Below the pieces are notes generated by a model, which made no database searches, had not been told where the DNA came from, and saw only the letters and a list, made by a program, of their open reading frames with translations. Shown here piece after piece: positions 8,882 through 15,628 of a DNA stretch of 28,051 nt (positions within the stretch are counted from its first letter, which is position 1; every line of letters begins with the position of its first letter). Source of the DNA: a virus; IMG/VR virus record IMGVR_UViG_3300023174_000530, positions 1 through 28,051 of that record; one strand, written 5' to 3'. Both the position numbers and the translations under genes were made by a program.

Positions 8882-9068
8882 CGTCTCTCCAAGGTGAGGG
8901 GGGAAAGTAGATTCCGCGCCCCCTCTATTCGCGGCATTGGACAACCTAACCAGCACGTAGCCGGGGGTAAGGTTAGGTTAGACAGGAACCGCTCGCATCT
9001 ACTAGGCTAGGTCGCCCGCCGTCTAGTGTCCCCCCGAGTTCTTCAATAATAGGGTAGTCGGCACGAAC
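8882..9068 (+). promoter_or_regulatory. Divergent control region with inverted repeat
   Basis: Non-coding gap between the leftward nuclease gene and the rightward RusA-like gene. A perfect nine-base inverted repeat, AACCTAACC at 8943-8951 and GGTTAGGTT at 8971-8979, is separated by 19 bases and could be an operator or an RNA hairpin. CTAG appears repeatedly at 9000-9025. An AATAAT at 9045-9050 is a weak candidate -10 for the rightward gene. No TTGACA-like element is evident on either strand, so the promoters may need a phage factor. Confidence 0.45.
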
Positions 9069-9431
9069 ATGCAAGCACTTACAGAAATCTGTTTGGAAAT
9101 TTTTGGCGAGCCAGCATCCAAGGCAAACAGTCGAAGACTTGTTGCGCGAGGGGGCAAGCCGATGTTCATCAAGTCTGAAAAGGCGCTGACCTACGCTGAT
9201 TCGTTTAAACAGCAATGCCCCGACTTCTACCACCCGTTTGAATGTGATGTCTGCGTGGAGATAAAGATCTACTACGCATCCCGTAGGCCCGACCTCGATG
9301 AATCCCTCATCCTCGATCTGCTACAAGGGGTAGCGTATTTAAACGACCGGCAGGTAAAACGTAAGGTCATCGACTGGGGACTCGACAAAGAGAATCCCCG
9401 TTGCATCATCCGGGTTAGTCCTTTACAGTGA
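9069..9431 (+). CDS. RusA-like Holliday junction resolvase
   Basis: 120 residues. The N-terminus has FGEPASKANSRRLVARGGKPMFIKSEKAL, the middle YYASRRPDLDESLILDLLQGVAYLNDRQV, and the end NPRCIIRVSPL. The G-x-P-x-S-K-x-N start, the RRPDLD metal-binding motif and the D-x-LQG-x3-ND element define the RusA family, dimeric enzymes that cut Holliday junctions. It complements the annealase, SSB-like and nuclease genes on the other strand. The ribosome-binding site before ATG 9069 is weak (GGCACGAAC). The SFKQ segment is encoded across GTTTAAAC at 9203. It is followed within 25 bases by a strong hairpin terminator region. Confidence 0.85.
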   Translation: MQALTEICLEIFGEPASKANSRRLVARGGKPMFIKSEKALTYADSFKQQCPDFYHPFECDVCVEIKIYYASRRPDLDESLILDLLQGVAYLNDRQVKRKVIDWGLDKENPRCIIRVSPLQ

Positions 9432-9453
9432 TGCTTGTTCTTGTGTCTCCTCC

Positions 9454-9495
9454 AGTGGTGTGACCACTTTGAAGCCCCTCCGGGGGCTTTTTTTT
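9454..9495 (+). terminator. Rho-independent terminator after the RusA-like gene
   Basis: Two stems in series: AGTGGT/ACCACT at 9454-9468, then AAGCCCC/GGGGCTT at 9472-9489 with a four-base loop, followed by an eight-T run at 9488-9495. This insulates the small-RNA promoter that starts six bases later. Confidence 0.9.
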
Positions 9496-9500
9496 CGCGC

Positions 9501-9530
9501 TTGACAACTGGTTAGCGTTGACGCTAGAGT
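9501..9530 (+). promoter_or_regulatory. Sigma70-type promoter with palindromic operator, for the small RNA
   Basis: Perfect -35 TTGACA at 9501-9506 and -10 TAGAGT at 9525-9530 with an 18-base spacer. The inverted repeat TAGCGT-TG-ACGCTA (9513-9526) fills the spacer and reaches into the -10, the usual place for a repressor site. Predicted transcription start is near 9537. Confidence 0.75.
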
Positions 9531-9536
9531 CAGCTT

Positions 9537-9640
9537 CATTGGGTGTGACAGCTCAGAGAATCGCTAAGTAAGATCCCGCCCCGAAAGGGGAACATCCACA
9601 AGATGTCTGTCACCGGGGTCTTTCTTAGCGGTTTTTTTTT
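9537..9640 (+). ncRNA. Candidate phage small RNA with terminator stem and possible pseudoknot
   Basis: About 100 bases from the predicted start to the T-run at 9632-9640; it has no reading frame. A long stem pairs 9562-9578 with 9614-9630 (CGCTAAG/CTTAGCG, then a T-T mismatch, then AAGATCCCG/CGGGGTCTT including one G-T pair). Inside are two hairpins: CCCC-GAAA-GGGG at 9579-9590, with a GNRA tetraloop, and ACATC/GATGT at 9592-9606 with a five-base loop. CTGTCAC at 9607-9613 can pair with GTGACAG at 9545-9551, crossing the long stem; this would be either a pseudoknot or an alternative fold that competes with the terminator. No known RNA family is recognised. It sits upstream of an HNH gene and the primase-helicase gene, so control of replication is one possibility. 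Confidence 0.7.
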
Positions 9641-9980
9641 GCCTCACTCAGTCGCACTCCTCGCGTTAGCAATGCACCTGCATGGGTGGCTGGGAAGAGA
9701 ACACCGGAACGGGGCAACACCTCCCCTGAGATCCGCGTAGCCTGTCCGCGAGGGACTACAGAAGATACCTAGAACAGGGTGGTAAACGACTAGGTATTCG
9801 ATGAATCGCGGCGTCAAGCGTTCGCTGGGAGAAGCCCCATGAGTGGCCCTCCGGGCGAGTGGTCTACGGACCACCTTGGTAGAGCTATGCCCTTGAAAAG
9901 ACAGGGAATTATAATTGTAAGAATTGTTCTCTTGTCTCGACTCCGGGTGGCAGGTACGATAAGAATCCGATGGAGGAAGC
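9641..9980 (+). other. 340-base non-coding stretch, probably structured RNA or leader
   Basis: No convincing gene in either strand. Several pairings suggest RNA structure: CCTCGCG (9659-9665) with CGCGAGG (9748-9754); GATACCTAG (9764-9772) with CTAGGTATT (9790-9798); GCCC-TCC-GGGC (9846-9856); and GTGGTC-TACG-GACCAC (9859-9874) with a UNCG-type loop. A perfect TATAAT at 9910-9915 lies upstream of the HNH gene but has no good -35 at the right distance. It could be a long 5' leader, a second RNA gene, or a remnant of a mobile intron. I could not match it to tRNA, tmRNA or RNase P. Confidence 0.4.
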
Positions 9981-10220
9981 ATGGCAAAGAAGCTCGAAGA
10001 CCGTAACTGGAAGCATGAATATGAACTCCAAAAGAAAAGAGGGGATACCAAGGGTCAGATTGAGAGACAACGCGCACGCAGGATGTATGACCAACAGGGC
10101 ATAGACCGCGCAGGAAAGAACATCGACCACATCAAACCGTTAGCGAAGGGGGGGAAATCAACCCCCGCCAACTTGCGACTGCGCTCACCTAGCGCCAATA
10201 AAGCAGACAACAAGAAGTAA
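9981..10220 (+). CDS. Small HNH endonuclease
   Basis: 79 residues from ATG 9981 with GGAGGA five bases upstream. The C-terminal half reads IDHIKPLAKGGKSTPANLRLRSPSANKADNKK: D49-H50, P53-L54, G57-G58, N64-L65 and N73, the His-Asn core of HNH nucleases. The N-terminal half is basic and helical (RNWKHEYELQKKRGDTKGQIERQRARRMYD). Similar small HNH proteins act in packaging with the terminase or as homing endonucleases, but this one lies between a structured non-coding region and the primase gene, which leaves its role open. Stop and next start overlap as TAATG at 10218-10222. Confidence 0.8.
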   Translation: MAKKLEDRNWKHEYELQKKRGDTKGQIERQRARRMYDQQGIDRAGKNIDHIKPLAKGGKSTPANLRLRSPSANKADNKK

Positions 10221-11896
10221 TGCAGGTTGAAGCACTTGTTGCGTCACTGCACGTGCATCAACACGCCCGTGTTGTTTGCCCCAACTGCGCTGACGAAAGA
10301 AAGAAAAGGGATAAGGACCTAGTCATCAACCGTAGCGGGGATGTGTGGGTCTTTTTTTGTCACCACTGCAACACCAAGGGCATCGTCCCTGTGTTTAAAC
10401 GAGATAAACCAATGCAGGTTCAATCCATCAACACCAACACATTCGACTTCCTACAGCAGGAGCACTATGACTTTCTATCGACGCGGGGCATCAGCAAGAC
10501 AACGGCAGACGATGCCCAACTGTTTGCCGCTACTAAGTTTTTTCGCAAGCTTGATCGGACCGCGAAAGCAGTAGGTTTCCCCTATTACAAGGGGGGAAAG
10601 ATGGTTGGTACGAAGTACCGATGCATCGAAACGAAAGACTTCACCCAAGACGCTGGTGGAAACAATGAGTTCTATGGGATTGACGATATCAAGGATGGAC
10701 CAATCGTCATCGTTGAGGGTGAGATCGATGCATTGACACTCAGGGAGTGCGGGATCGAGAACGTTCTATCCGTTCCATCCGGTGCCCCGATGAAAGTCAG
10801 CAACGGCAAGGTCGACGCATCCGAAGACAAGAAGTTCGAGTTCGTTTGGAATGCCTTTGAAATCCTGTCTAAAGCGCCCTACGTGACGATTGCGACCGAC
10901 AGTGATACCGCAGGTCAGGCTTGCGCTGAAGAGCTTGCTAGACGCATTGGGAAGGACCGTTGCCGCCTCGCCACGATCCCCGGAAAGGATCTGAATGAGG
11001 TGTTCCTGAAGGACGGTGCGGACGCAGTCAAACATGTCATTGCATCTTCACAACCGTACCCCGTAGCGGGGTTGAGCGAAGCAACCAAGTACGAGGAACG
11101 TTTAAACGATTTATGGGAGAAGGGCAACGGCAAGGGGGAGTCAACCGGCTACTCGAACGTGGACCAGATTTACACCGTGGCCCAAGGTCAGCTAACGGTA
11201 GTCACGGGGTATCCATCATCCGGTAAATCCAACTTCGTTGATCAATTGATGGTCAACCTCGCACGGGCGCATGATTGGAAGTTTGCCGTTTGTAGTTTCG
11301 AGAACGCGCCCGAAATCCATATCTCAAGACTGATGGAGCTTTACTCTCAGAAGAGATTCTTCGAGGGCGCTCACCGGATGAGCCAGCAGGAGAAGGATGA
11401 TGCGTTTAAATGGGTCAAGGACCATTTCCTGTTCCTAGACTCTGAGGGGGCAGAGCCATCGACCATCGACTCGATACTGGAAAGGGCGAGGGTGGCGGTC
11501 GCCCGCATCGGCATTCGGGGGATGGTCATCGACCCCTACAACTACATCGACAACAAGGGTAACCAGCAAGAGACTGAGTTTATATCGGGCATGTTGACAA
11601 GGGTTCAGGCGTTCGCCAAGGCGTTCGGAGTCCACGTATGGTTCGTGGCCCATCCGAGCAAAATAACGCGCTCTGGGATGGATCTACCGCGTCCTGACGG
11701 CATGGCAATCAGCGGTTCTATGGCGTGGTGGGCGAAGGCCGATTGCGGCATCACCGTGCATAGGGCCAAGCCCAATGTCGAGATAGCAGTGTGGAAGTGC
11801 AGGTACAGGTGGATCGGCCAGCAAGGGGAAACAACGCTTGCGTATGACAAGGCCACTGGTAGCTACTTCGAGGACCAGTCAGACGACTTTATTTGA
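10220..11896 (+). CDS. Primase-helicase (T7 gp4/Twinkle type)
   Basis: 558 residues. N-terminal zinc-binding motif: C20-P-N-C23 and C47-H-H-C50. The Toprim primase core has IVIVEGEIDAL with E166 and E168, and ATDSDTAG with D227 and D229. The RecA/DnaB helicase domain has a P-loop GYPSSGKSN (about 330-338), a DPYNYID Walker-B-like element and HPSK/GSMAWWAKAD motifs near the C-terminus. Such enzymes unwind DNA and synthesise primers at the fork. No DNA polymerase lies in this window. It is coupled to the HNH gene by TAATG. GTTTAAAC sites occur at 10393 (Phe-Lys) and 11100 (Leu-Asn). The length is close to T7 gp4. Confidence 0.95.
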   Translation: MQVEALVASLHVHQHARVVCPNCADERKKRDKDLVINRSGDVWVFFCHHCNTKGIVPVFKRDKPMQVQSINTNTFDFLQQEHYDFLSTRGISKTTADDAQLFAATKFFRKLDRTAKAVGFPYYKGGKMVGTKYRCIETKDFTQDAGGNNEFYGIDDIKDGPIVIVEGEIDALTLRECGIENVLSVPSGAPMKVSNGKVDASEDKKFEFVWNAFEILSKAPYVTIATDSDTAGQACAEELARRIGKDRCRLATIPGKDLNEVFLKDGADAVKHVIASSQPYPVAGLSEATKYEERLNDLWEKGNGKGESTGYSNVDQIYTVAQGQLTVVTGYPSSGKSNFVDQLMVNLARAHDWKFAVCSFENAPEIHISRLMELYSQKRFFEGAHRMSQQEKDDAFKWVKDHFLFLDSEGAEPSTIDSILERARVAVARIGIRGMVIDPYNYIDNKGNQQETEFISGMLTRVQAFAKAFGVHVWFVAHPSKITRSGMDLPRPDGMAISGSMAWWAKADCGITVHRAKPNVEIAVWKCRYRWIGQQGETTLAYDKATGSYFEDQSDDFI

Positions 11897-12505: not shown

Positions 12506-13273
12506 TTAGGCAATCGCTTTGAGGAGATTGCCGAATGACTTAGTCGCGATATCGCGGACATTCTTTACATTCTCCGCGTTGCGAAAGCACTTGCCTACCT
12601 GCGTGTCGCCAATCCCAATCGCGACAATGTTGATGCCACGCTTGTCGGCGAAGTCCTGCAAGTACTTCATATGGCTGGAGATGTAGCACTCCGCGTCAGT
12701 CAGCAGAAACAGAATCTTGCGAGCCTCAGTGCGTCGCGACAACTCCTCAAGCTTGATATAAATGCTTGAGTAGTCGGGCGTCCCGCTCGATGCCAATTCA
12801 TCCATCATCCCAAGCTTGGCCGCCGCCCGGTGGAGTGGTTCGCCCCATAGTTTAAACGGGATATATTCGACGTTCTCACTGTTCGACCCGCACTCATTGC
12901 CGTATGCACCCCCGTGGAAACCGGTCACCTCGAAAGCCGCATTCGACTTCGAGAGGATGTTGGCAAGCTGAATTGAGATTGCTTGTGCGGTGCGAATCTC
13001 CTCACCGCGCATCGATGCAGAGCAATCGACCAGCACCGACACGGCGGCGGTATCGGCCTCGACCACTTCGCGACGGCTGAAGATATTGGCCTGACCCGTG
13101 GCATACCGAGTGAAGGCGCGGCGATCCAGTCGACCGGACTCCTCATGCGTCGACCAACCGACATAGTCAATCGACCGCAGGACGTTCAACAACTTCGCCC
13201 GTGTAGCGGCGATGCCGTGGATTGGGGTGCGAAGGATGCTCGCGAAGTCTGATTCGTATACGTGCTTGTTCAT
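12506..13273 (-). CDS. VWA-domain protein (CobT C-terminal-like)
   Basis: 255 residues from ATG 13273, with GGAG five bases upstream, one base after the upstream stop. A CobT-type region (SGRLDRRAFTRYATGQANIFSRREV) leads into a von Willebrand A domain with a metal-ion site D83-C-S85-A-S87 (VSVLVDCSASMRGEE) and later ILFLLTDAE and IVAIGIGD. In cobaltochelatase and MoxR systems the VWA subunit works with an AAA+ partner to remodel a target. In ordinary CobT this domain is fused to the linker-bearing part encoded here by the gene just upstream, so this looks like a split CobT. The phage target is unknown. PFKLWG is encoded across GTTTAAAC at 12850. Confidence 0.8.
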   Translation of the reverse strand: MNKHVYESDFASILRTPIHGIAATRAKLLNVLRSIDYVGWSTHEESGRLDRRAFTRYATGQANIFSRREVVEADTAAVSVLVDCSASMRGEEIRTAQAISIQLANILSKSNAAFEVTGFHGGAYGNECGSNSENVEYIPFKLWGEPLHRAAAKLGMMDELASSGTPDYSSIYIKLEELSRRTEARKILFLLTDAECYISSHMKYLQDFADKRGINIVAIGIGDTQVGKCFRNAENVKNVRDIATKSFGNLLKAIA

Positions 13274-13274
13274 A

Positions 13275-14207
13275 TCAACTCCAATCAAATTTATAGGTGG
13301 TGACCTTACGGCACGAGGGCCGGGGCAGGTACTCATCTGCCGCGCATGCATGAGGTCTCAATTCATCCGCGAGGTCAGGTTCGATGGGGCGCTCGTCACC
13401 CTGCTTGCCAACCCCCTTGTTGTTAGCAGGATCGCCCTCAGCAGGGCCGTCAGCGGGTTTATTTCCCTCACCCCCACCCCCTTGCGCGTCTCCGGGGCCG
13501 TCTGAGGGGCTATCACCGGGGGCATCATCGGGGGTGTCATCGGGGGTTGGTTGTTGGGGAGAGGGAGGGGGCTTGAGTTCGTTTAAACGCCGCAACAACT
13601 CCACGGCAATCTTCACTACCTCAATGGTGGACTGCGCCTTATGCGCCTCATCCAGTGCCCACTGAATGGCAACCCGATAGCGCGACTTGGTGTAAACGGG
13701 CGGCACTGCAATCCGATACCCGTTCATGCGTCGACCTTCGACCGCCAACTGAAAGGCGATGTTGCCGAAATCATCCGGCTCGCAGTAGGTGCCCCCCATC
13801 ATCTCGTTGATGAGGTTCTCGAACAATGCGAATGCATTACCTGCGATGCCCGACTCGATAACCTTGCGCTCAATGCGCGGGTCCTCAAGACCGTTGATGA
13901 GGCGGGACAGGGTTGGGTTGTCATTGTGCCTATCCCAAGGCGTGTTGTCGGTGAACCACGCATGCCCAAGCTCATGCAACACCATCCCAACAAACTTAGG
14001 CAATGCCTTAGTGGGCATCACCCCGTTGTCATCCACGTTGGGGAACATAAACATGGCAGACACGTGGTTGTTGCCCAGATCATAAAACCGGACGCTCGCA
14101 CCCTTGCCGCACCACTGAATCTCCAGTGAGCCGAACGTGTATTTCGAGGCGTTGAAGACACGCTCCAACGTAGTCGCGACCCCGCGCTTGAAATCAGAAC
14201 CCAACAT
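13275..14207 (-). CDS. CobT N-terminal-like protein with HELGH zincin motif and acidic linker
   Basis: 310 residues. H78-E79-L80-G81-H82 followed by INGLEDPRIERKV (E108-D109) matches the peptidase-like part of CobT and related VWA proteins. From about residue 205 to 285 a Pro/Asp/Gly-rich low-complexity linker occurs (PPPSPQQPTPDD..., GDAQGGGGEGNK...), as in the middle of CobT. The VWA domain expected next is on a separate gene. GGAGGG precedes ATG 14207. It lies three bases after the AAA+ gene, the typical gene order of CobS-CobT or MoxR-VWA pairs. Whether it cleaves peptides or only binds metal is unknown. A GTTTAAAC site at 13581 encodes RLNE. Confidence 0.75.
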   Translation of the reverse strand: MLGSDFKRGVATTLERVFNASKYTFGSLEIQWCGKGASVRFYDLGNNHVSAMFMFPNVDDNGVMPTKALPKFVGMVLHELGHAWFTDNTPWDRHNDNPTLSRLINGLEDPRIERKVIESGIAGNAFALFENLINEMMGGTYCEPDDFGNIAFQLAVEGRRMNGYRIAVPPVYTKSRYRVAIQWALDEAHKAQSTIEVVKIAVELLRRLNELKPPPSPQQPTPDDTPDDAPGDSPSDGPGDAQGGGGEGNKPADGPAEGDPANNKGVGKQGDERPIEPDLADELRPHACAADEYLPRPSCRKVTTYKFDWS

Positions 14208-14209
14208 GA

Positions 14210-15628
14210 TTAACCCTCCAGTGCTTGTTTAAACGCGGCCTCATTGATGGTCGCGGTGTAGATGCCAAGTAATTCGACTGCCGTCTCGCTAGGAAACTTG
14301 TTGATGACGGCATTACGAAAACCCGTAGCGACCGGCAAACCGGCCTGAGTCGCATCAGCCCATGCGAACAGTTGGCGCAAGCTTGGGGCCTGTACCAGCA
14401 ACCCCATGCGAGCCTTCTCACGCGCCACATTGACCAAGTCAACGAGCATGCGAGCGGCGGTATCGGTCATGCCTGACCGCGAGGCAATCAGCGCGGCCTC
14501 GTCATGCGCTGGCAGGTACTCGAAATTCAACGTGAAGCTGAACCTATCGATGAATGCCGTCGATTGCTGACGCACCCCGGCGAAGTTGCCGTTGTCGCCG
14601 TGGCCGTTACTGTTATCGGCCACAAAAAACGCAACGTGCGGGGCGACCGGGATGCGCTCGCCCGTCTCCGAAATCACAATCGCACGGTCACGGGTACGCT
14701 CGCAAAGAGCATGCAAGGTCGCGATTGACTGCGCCCGTGCAAACCCAATTTCATCGAGCAGGACAATCGCACCGGGGTGCGTGATTGCCTTGACGATTGC
14801 CCCCGGCGTCCACACTACGGTGCCGTTGACAATGGTGTTGCCGCCAATGAACTCGGCGCGCTCGGCGGACTCGTCGAAGTTGATGCGGAACAACTTCCGT
14901 CCCAACCGCGCGGCCAATTGCTTGACGAACTCGGTCTTGCCAGTGCCACGCTCACCGGCCAGCCAGCAATTATGGGGGAGTGGGTTCGACAGTGCGACGA
15001 GAGCCTGATGCAGGTTTTCTGCATCAAAGACATAATCGTCAAGCACCGCCGGGGCATCAGCATCGCCCCAGAACTCGACCGCAAGGTTCGAGAAGTCAAC
15101 GAACCCGCCCAACCCCGCTTGCACTGCGCCGTAGGCGGTGACCGGGAACAGATCCCCGGCAAACTTGACCTGACGTACGGGCAGGATGGAGTCGGCAACC
15201 TTAGTCACCACCGCTGGAGCGGTGACCGATTTAAACGCGGCAAACGCCTCGCTGACGGCGCGGCTAACCTCACCAGCGACCACGCTGGCATCGATCTTGG
15301 GGATGGATGCAAGCGCCGCCGCCTTTGCATCGGCAATCTTACGTTCGACCTCGGCCTCCTGACGGGTCACGGTAGAGGCAAGCGCGGCGGTGGTCGCATG
15401 CAGGTCCTGCACGGTCTTGAGGACCGCGCTAACGTCCACTGAGGGGGCGGCAACCCCGACAACACCGGCCTCGATTGCGGTGAGTGTTATCTGACTGCGC
15501 GCGATGCAATCCACGAGATACTCGATTGCATCTGCCTTGTGGGCAGTTGGTTGACCGCCGCACTGAATGATTGCCGCATTCAGCTTCGACAGTGGGATGC
15601 GCGCGAGGTTCTGTTCGATGGTAAGCAT
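14210..15628 (-). CDS. CobS/MoxR-like AAA+ ATPase
   Basis: 472 residues. The N-terminal third is alanine-rich and helical with a coiled-coil appearance (residues about 70-140). The AAA+ domain has Walker A GERGTGKT (225-232, K231), Walker B AIVLLDEIG (D292, E293), and sensor-like FFVADNSNGHGDN followed by FIDRFSFTLNF. These features match CobS and MoxR-type ATPases, which drive VWA partners. The two genes after it encode the split CobT-like partner, so the three probably form one complex. A related arrangement occurs in other phages under the misleading name cobalamin biosynthesis; no cobalamin genes are present here. ACTGGAG precedes ATG 15628. A GTTTAAAC site lies at 14227 near the stop. 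Confidence 0.85.
   Translation of the reverse strand: MLTIEQNLARIPLSKLNAAIIQCGGQPTAHKADAIEYLVDCIARSQITLTAIEAGVVGVAAPSVDVSAVLKTVQDLHATTAALASTVTRQEAEVERKIADAKAAALASIPKIDASVVAGEVSRAVSEAFAAFKSVTAPAVVTKVADSILPVRQVKFAGDLFPVTAYGAVQAGLGGFVDFSNLAVEFWGDADAPAVLDDYVFDAENLHQALVALSNPLPHNCWLAGERGTGKTEFVKQLAARLGRKLFRINFDESAERAEFIGGNTIVNGTVVWTPGAIVKAITHPGAIVLLDEIGFARAQSIATLHALCERTRDRAIVISETGERIPVAPHVAFFVADNSNGHGDNGNFAGVRQQSTAFIDRFSFTLNFEYLPAHDEAALIASRSGMTDTAARMLVDLVNVAREKARMGLLVQAPSLRQLFAWADATQAGLPVATGFRNAVINKFPSETAVELLGIYTATINEAAFKQALEG

Follow-up and report, generated by a model that had tools for sequence, protein, structure and literature searches.

A new RNA family with a covariation-supported pseudoknot in uncultivated environmental phages, and the conserved element that follows it

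Analysis of a 28,051-nucleotide stretch of viral DNA (the window, by which we mean the whole stretch) revealed a structured RNA of about 104 nt, named here RNA-A, which is a real new RNA family in uncultivated environmental phages. RNA-A adds to the known repertoire a family that is missing from Rfam, and its pseudoknot is, at the level of sequence, strongly supported by covariation. A second conserved element, RNA-B, follows it within tens of bases nearly always. We infer a function from this arrangement and give it an even chance: within a noncoding cassette of two RNAs, RNA-A would be the terminator module nearest the promoter, from which a stable RNA of ~104 nt is released and by which read-through into RNA-B is limited.

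Layout and fold of RNA-A in the window

The initial annotation of this DNA had named a series of sequence elements between positions 9501 and 9640, and every one of them is present in the sequence. The features described here between 9471 and 9900 all lie on the plus strand. Upstream, a RusA-like ORF (9069-9431) is followed by an intrinsic terminator with an 8-pair stem and a T run (9471-9490), which lies outside RNA-A. Next comes a sigma70-type promoter, TTGACA-18-TAGAGT (9501-9530), with the -35 at 9501-9506, the -10 at 9525-9530 and a spacer of 18 bp, from which transcription is expected to start near 9537-9538. RNA-A itself spans 9538-9640, an assignment that rests on a covariance model, R1, and on folding. 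R1, built from 26 rows with the window itself among them, matched positions 9535-9638 with 72.8 bits (E 1.8e-19), and the predicted folding energy of the region was -45 kcal/mol, compared with -28.3±3.5 for shuffled sequences (z -4.8).

RNA-A begins with a hairpin, P0 (9539-9556; arms 9539-9543 and 9552-9556), whose loop is formed by the 5' strand of the pseudoknot helix (S1a, GUGACAG, 9545-9551). The initial annotation had not recognised P0 as a hairpin in its own right, with GTGACAG for its loop. The 5' arm of the terminator stem (S2a, 9562-9578) leads into a GAAA-capped hairpin, CCCC-GAAA-GGGG (9579-9590), and into a second inner hairpin, ACAUC/GAUGU (9592-9606), taken from the predicted fold. 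The 3' strand of the pseudoknot helix (S1b, CUGUCAC, 9607-9613) is followed without a gap by the 3' arm of the terminator stem (S2b, 9614-9630), which completes 17 bp and leads into a U tract of nine T (9632-9640). In the minimum-energy fold the P0 loop and CTGTCAC are both essentially unpaired, CUGUCAC being single-stranded just 5' of the terminator 3' arm, so the crossing helix could be added without breaking the fold. Because S1b and the terminator arm are adjacent and share no bases, S1 and S2 need not exclude each other.

The promoter is a feature of the family. At the equivalent place, 62 of the 82 distinct loci carry a promoter scoring at least 9/12, as against 1 of 92 windows taken ~400 nt upstream; the spacer is mostly 18, and in most loci 12-17 nt separate the end of the -10 from S1a. 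The promoter had also been described as operator-controlled, on account of the palindrome TAGCGT-TG-ACGCTA (9513-9526), and this part of the description did not hold. The palindrome is perfect in the window only, degraded in the sister phages L003 and L006 and absent from most relatives, and the promoter spacers were no more palindromic than their shuffles (mean score 2.92 vs 2.80), which reveals no conserved dyad and rules out the operator palindrome, a lineage-specific sequence, as a feature of the family. Unrelated dyads of their own occur in the promoter spacers of L331, L361, L372 and L382 (for example TGGGACATGTCCCA in L331), and since some phages have such dyads, lineage-specific operators are possible in some of them.

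Conservation of the crossing helix and distribution of RNA-A

Using the nearby primase (10220-11896) as bait, we collected 120 distinct viral loci, 38 of which matched a descriptor of the stem plus the crossing helix, compared with 2 reverse complements and 1 shuffle; one of the 38, L063, appears to be false. The descriptor demands the crossing helix, and the scan was repeated demanding the long terminator only. Among the 44 distinct long terminators obtained in this way, 31 had their own S1 paired at 6 bp or more, against 12.5% when S1b was taken from other loci. A pattern for the 3' end only, run on all IMG/VR contigs, returned 84 stretches, of which 57 were distinct and complete. A perfect 7/7 S1 partner was present in 53 of the 57 and a 6/7 partner in two, in a setting where three of the seven bases of S1b are dictated by the pattern itself and mismatched pairs also often reach 6/7; for the remaining stretches, L344 and L349, the script chose a wrong register, and inspection reveals the partner in L344.

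Covariation pointed in the same direction. In an alignment of 26 sequences, two-sided changes were found in 21 of 29 pairs (shuffled, 11.2±2.1), including five of the seven S1 pairs, and covariation was 0.347, compared with 0.08-0.18 for slid controls; the alignment was made by sequence, and misregistered rows depress its covariation figures. The S1 sequence varies freely across phages while its pairing is kept. Judged from these comparisons, the crossing helix of RNA-A is real. The initial annotation had read the GTGACAG/CTGTCAC pairing as a pseudoknot or a terminator/antiterminator choice and had set, as one of its checks, that aligned relatives should show compensatory changes in the stems; this check was run, the changes were found, and the pseudoknot, borne out by the pairing of each locus with its own strand and by the two-sided changes, survived the attempt at refutation.

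Other parts of the fold are conserved to differing degrees. Across the family P0 usually has 5-6 bp with S1a as its loop, and good pairing with its own 3' arm is seen in 64% of loci, against 23% when the arm comes from another locus, so that P0 is supported by the sequences, less strongly than S1. No gap separates S1b from the S2 arm in 24 of 37 cases, and S2 encloses one or two inner hairpins whose sizes differ among members. The combined length of P0, S1 and the linker gave no clear fit to that of S2 (rho 0.26, p 0.14). An RNA-A variant in L280 (~2270-2510) has a longer candidate crossing helix, CATC-AT-GGGAAAG / CTTTCCCCGATG, set away from the terminator arm.

RNA-A was found in about 80 distinct phage contigs representing several unrelated gene neighbourhoods, and in 14 of the 20 viral records that were searched whole, with one site per record. 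Its neighbours in the window are RusA-like genes on one side and HNH/primase genes on the other; elsewhere it accompanies a ParB-like / DEAD helicase / primase-like operon, or a terminase and a phosphoesterase gene. Finding RNA-A beside unrelated genes indicates that it does not serve as leader to any single gene. We discarded the hypothesis of a primase leader, since RNA-A also occurs elsewhere, and the initial annotation's suggestion of particular targets in the leaders of primase or HNH is likewise unsupported. Further along the window (12506-15628, minus strand), genes match CobT-like and porphyrin-biosynthesis (AAA ATPase) PHROGs.

One member belongs to a named environmental phage genome, MW202545.1 (Siphoviridae sp. 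ctpbd312, Manatee Spring; L411), which was reached through DNA similarity to L245 and in which six tRNA genes are followed by RNA-A (100.7 bits) and then by RF02932, a family discussed below. These six phage tRNA genes (L411 2405-2980) are directly upstream of RNA-A, and tRNA genes are also found just upstream of it in L245 and L333. RNA-A is essentially absent from bacterial genomes. Among 369 genomes of the same class as the sole match, the model matched only that one, a metagenome-assembled genome, in which the matches fall on short contigs, the best of them also encoding a phage primase; a primase scan of genome contigs returned one phage-like contig and one distant homolog. A weak model match, L413, was rejected because it looks like chance and lies inside an apparent bacterial coding sequence.

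The assertion that no known RNA family matches RNA-A was upheld. Rfam 15 had no match in the window at the gathering threshold and none for RNA-A even at E<=5; the best weak match within 8900-10300 was to the upstream terminator, with 22.4 bits against 50. DNA similarity searches among annotated phages found no relative of the RNA-A of the window, only short T-run matches, and a literature search with preprints and subscription journals largely outside its reach returned no published description.

The partner element RNA-B

RNA-B occupies 9654-9900 of the window (the end is approximate), where it belongs to a class common to L003, L004, L006 and L009, and between sister phages this stretch is more conserved than RNA-A. 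The association also holds in the opposite direction: when loci were picked by an RNA-B pattern alone, RNA-A lay directly upstream in 18 of 20 distinct loci. The 18 include L302, for which the script took the wrong register; its contig is the one that holds L010, and RNA-A can be seen there. RNA-B without RNA-A is seen in L312 and L314. A promoter of its own for RNA-B was found in none of 24 relatives. The initial description of an isolated phage RNA unit was thus correct in that RNA-A is discrete, with its own promoter and terminator, but not in its isolation, as RNA-B nearly always follows. The steady pairing of RNA-A and RNA-B across phages of differing gene content suggests a shared, RNA-borne infection function.

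Several sequence classes of RNA-B exist, and one of them is Rfam RF02932 (Betaproteobacteria-1). Its gathering score of 49.4 bits was reached in L005, L081, L387, L411 and L415, and the RNA-B of the window scored below it. Viral contigs or a phage genome account for four of these five sites, and the fifth comes from a metagenome-assembled genome, where it lies in a short contig. RNA-A lies directly before RF02932 in four of the five (L081, L387, L411 and L415), and L005 has only a plain terminator in front. RF02932 was present in one of 274 genomes scanned, the same metagenome-assembled genome that contains the RNA-A match. RF02932 thereby gains a context, with mostly viral sites and RNA-A directly upstream in most of them.

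DNA similarity among annotated phages gave no relative of the RNA-B of the window. The consensus fold of RNA-B has only 14 pairs and no convincing structure, a weakness that we attribute to the mixing of several classes. RNA-B is nevertheless probably structured, in view of the RF02932 class and of sequence conservation in a noncoding stretch. Large conserved RNA-B blocks, mostly absent from Rfam, are seen at 9654-9900 of the window, at 959-1215 of L245 and from ~5530 of L327 (plus strand). Insertions of ~200 nt inside an apparent single hairpin occur in RNA-B of L249 (from 2492) and, downstream of RNA-A, in L334 and L336.

Among the relatives selected by RNA-B that carry RNA-A, a U tract follows S2 in all except one lineage, L301/L308. 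In L244/L247, which are on the same contigs as L308/L301, S1 and an extended S2 are kept and the U tract is missing, suggesting that termination is not needed everywhere.

Proposed role, alternatives and related systems

We favoured the two-RNA cassette because RNA-A and RNA-B go together and no promoter was found for RNA-B itself. The promoter, P0, the covarying S1 and S2, the U tract and the placement before a promoterless RNA-B are conserved, and the layout is that of an attenuator: a promoter, a structured leader, an intrinsic terminator and then RNA-B. In the proposed mechanism, a strong sigma70-type promoter would start transcription at the foot of P0, which would fold first and whose 7-nt loop would then capture the emerging S1b; the long S2 stem, with one or two inner hairpins inside it, would close immediately ahead of the U tract. 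Termination at this point would be the fate of most transcripts, giving a compact RNA of ~104 nt with its 5' end in P0 and its 3' end in the terminator stem, and polymerases passing the terminator would make RNA-B, a larger structured RNA. RNA-A would have a dual role, as a stable small RNA that is released and as a limit on the amount of RNA-B. We infer that transcripts exist and that termination is partial or regulated, with a possible effect of S1 on it. Searches for an antiterminator gave no such pairing: the S1 and S2 strands showed no clearly greater complementarity to their own downstream region than to those of other loci, nor was there a clear excess of antisense pairing between RNA-A and its own downstream region. 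A more ambitious version, which we put forward tentatively and hold to be doubtful, is that a pseudoknotted small RNA gates a large partner RNA of interchangeable classes by conditional termination, and that in infected cells the two RNAs work in trans as a pair without depending on a particular phage gene.

The main rival to the cassette treats RNA-A as a small RNA acting in trans on its own account, perhaps as a decoy or scaffold for a protein, and RNA-B as nothing more than its neighbour in a cluster of noncoding genes. We consider this a real, if minority, possibility. RNA-A has its own promoter and terminator, a compact fold with both ends protected and a single site per phage in several neighbourhoods; the freedom of the S1 sequence under constant pairing suggests that shape matters more than sequence; and phage tRNA genes lie near RNA-A in L411, L245 and L333. 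That RNA-A so often lies ahead of an RNA-B without a promoter argues instead for coupling, and we know of no conserved protein or RNA target on which RNA-A might act in trans. It is improbable that RNA-A is merely an unusually long intrinsic terminator with a functionless pseudoknot: S2 and the U tract do form a textbook strong terminator, but a plain terminator requires neither P0 nor S1, compensatory changes maintain the crossing helix across many phages, and the S1/S2 structure persists in the lineage without a U tract.

Equally hard to sustain is a ligand-sensing riboswitch, in the form of a terminator-embedded aptamer controlling replication genes, even though a pseudoknot beside a terminator is the arrangement seen in fluoride and preQ1 riboswitches and has a likeness to the HMP-PP class, whose aptamer is terminator-embedded (PMC11077080, PMC11625349, PMC6478431). 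No strongly conserved pocket is seen: the S1 and S2 sequences vary, the number of hairpins changes, and the few invariant columns among 26 divergent members lie mostly in helices and the U tract, the absence of invariant unpaired bases weakening the case. The neighbouring genes have unrelated functions with no constant metabolic gene downstream, and no Rfam riboswitch matched. Least probable of all is that the conserved block acts as DNA, as a replication origin or packaging signal, with its RNA structure incidental. Its position in the window, between recombination and primase genes, would suit such an element; in other phages, however, it lies by terminase or by ParB-like/helicase operons, and the promoter, the U tract and changes that tolerate G-U pairs point to RNA.

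Turning to known systems, RF02932 (Betaproteobacteria-1) corresponds to one RNA-B class, found directly after RNA-A, but it covers 120 nt of the partner only, and RNA-A matches no Rfam 15 model, RF02932 included. ToxI is a tandem repeat with an adjoining toxin gene, whereas RNA-A is a single unit per record and no recurrent toxin-like neighbour was seen. The likeness is that the type III toxin-antitoxin RNAs (ToxI) and their phage mimics are, as RNA-A is, small pseudoknotted RNAs of relevance to phages (PMC3475682). The fluoride (crcB) and preQ1 transcriptional riboswitches place a pseudoknot beside an intrinsic terminator (PMC11077080, PMC11625349), and RNA-A does likewise; RNA-A differs in that its pseudoknot strand is inside the terminator loop, abutting the 3' arm, and neither a conserved pocket nor a matching gene context is evident. 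The HMP-PP (thiS) riboswitch, a terminator-embedded aptamer (PMC6478431), shares with RNA-A a structure carried inside the terminator hairpin; in RNA-A, by contrast, a distinct 5' hairpin extends into the terminator loop, and no thiamin gene was seen nearby. Finally, GOLLD and ROOL are ornate large noncoding RNAs reported in phages (PMC12286853). No Rfam match to either was present in any locus scanned, and RNA-A, at ~104 nt, differs from them; it is RNA-B that is like GOLLD and ROOL in its apparent complexity.
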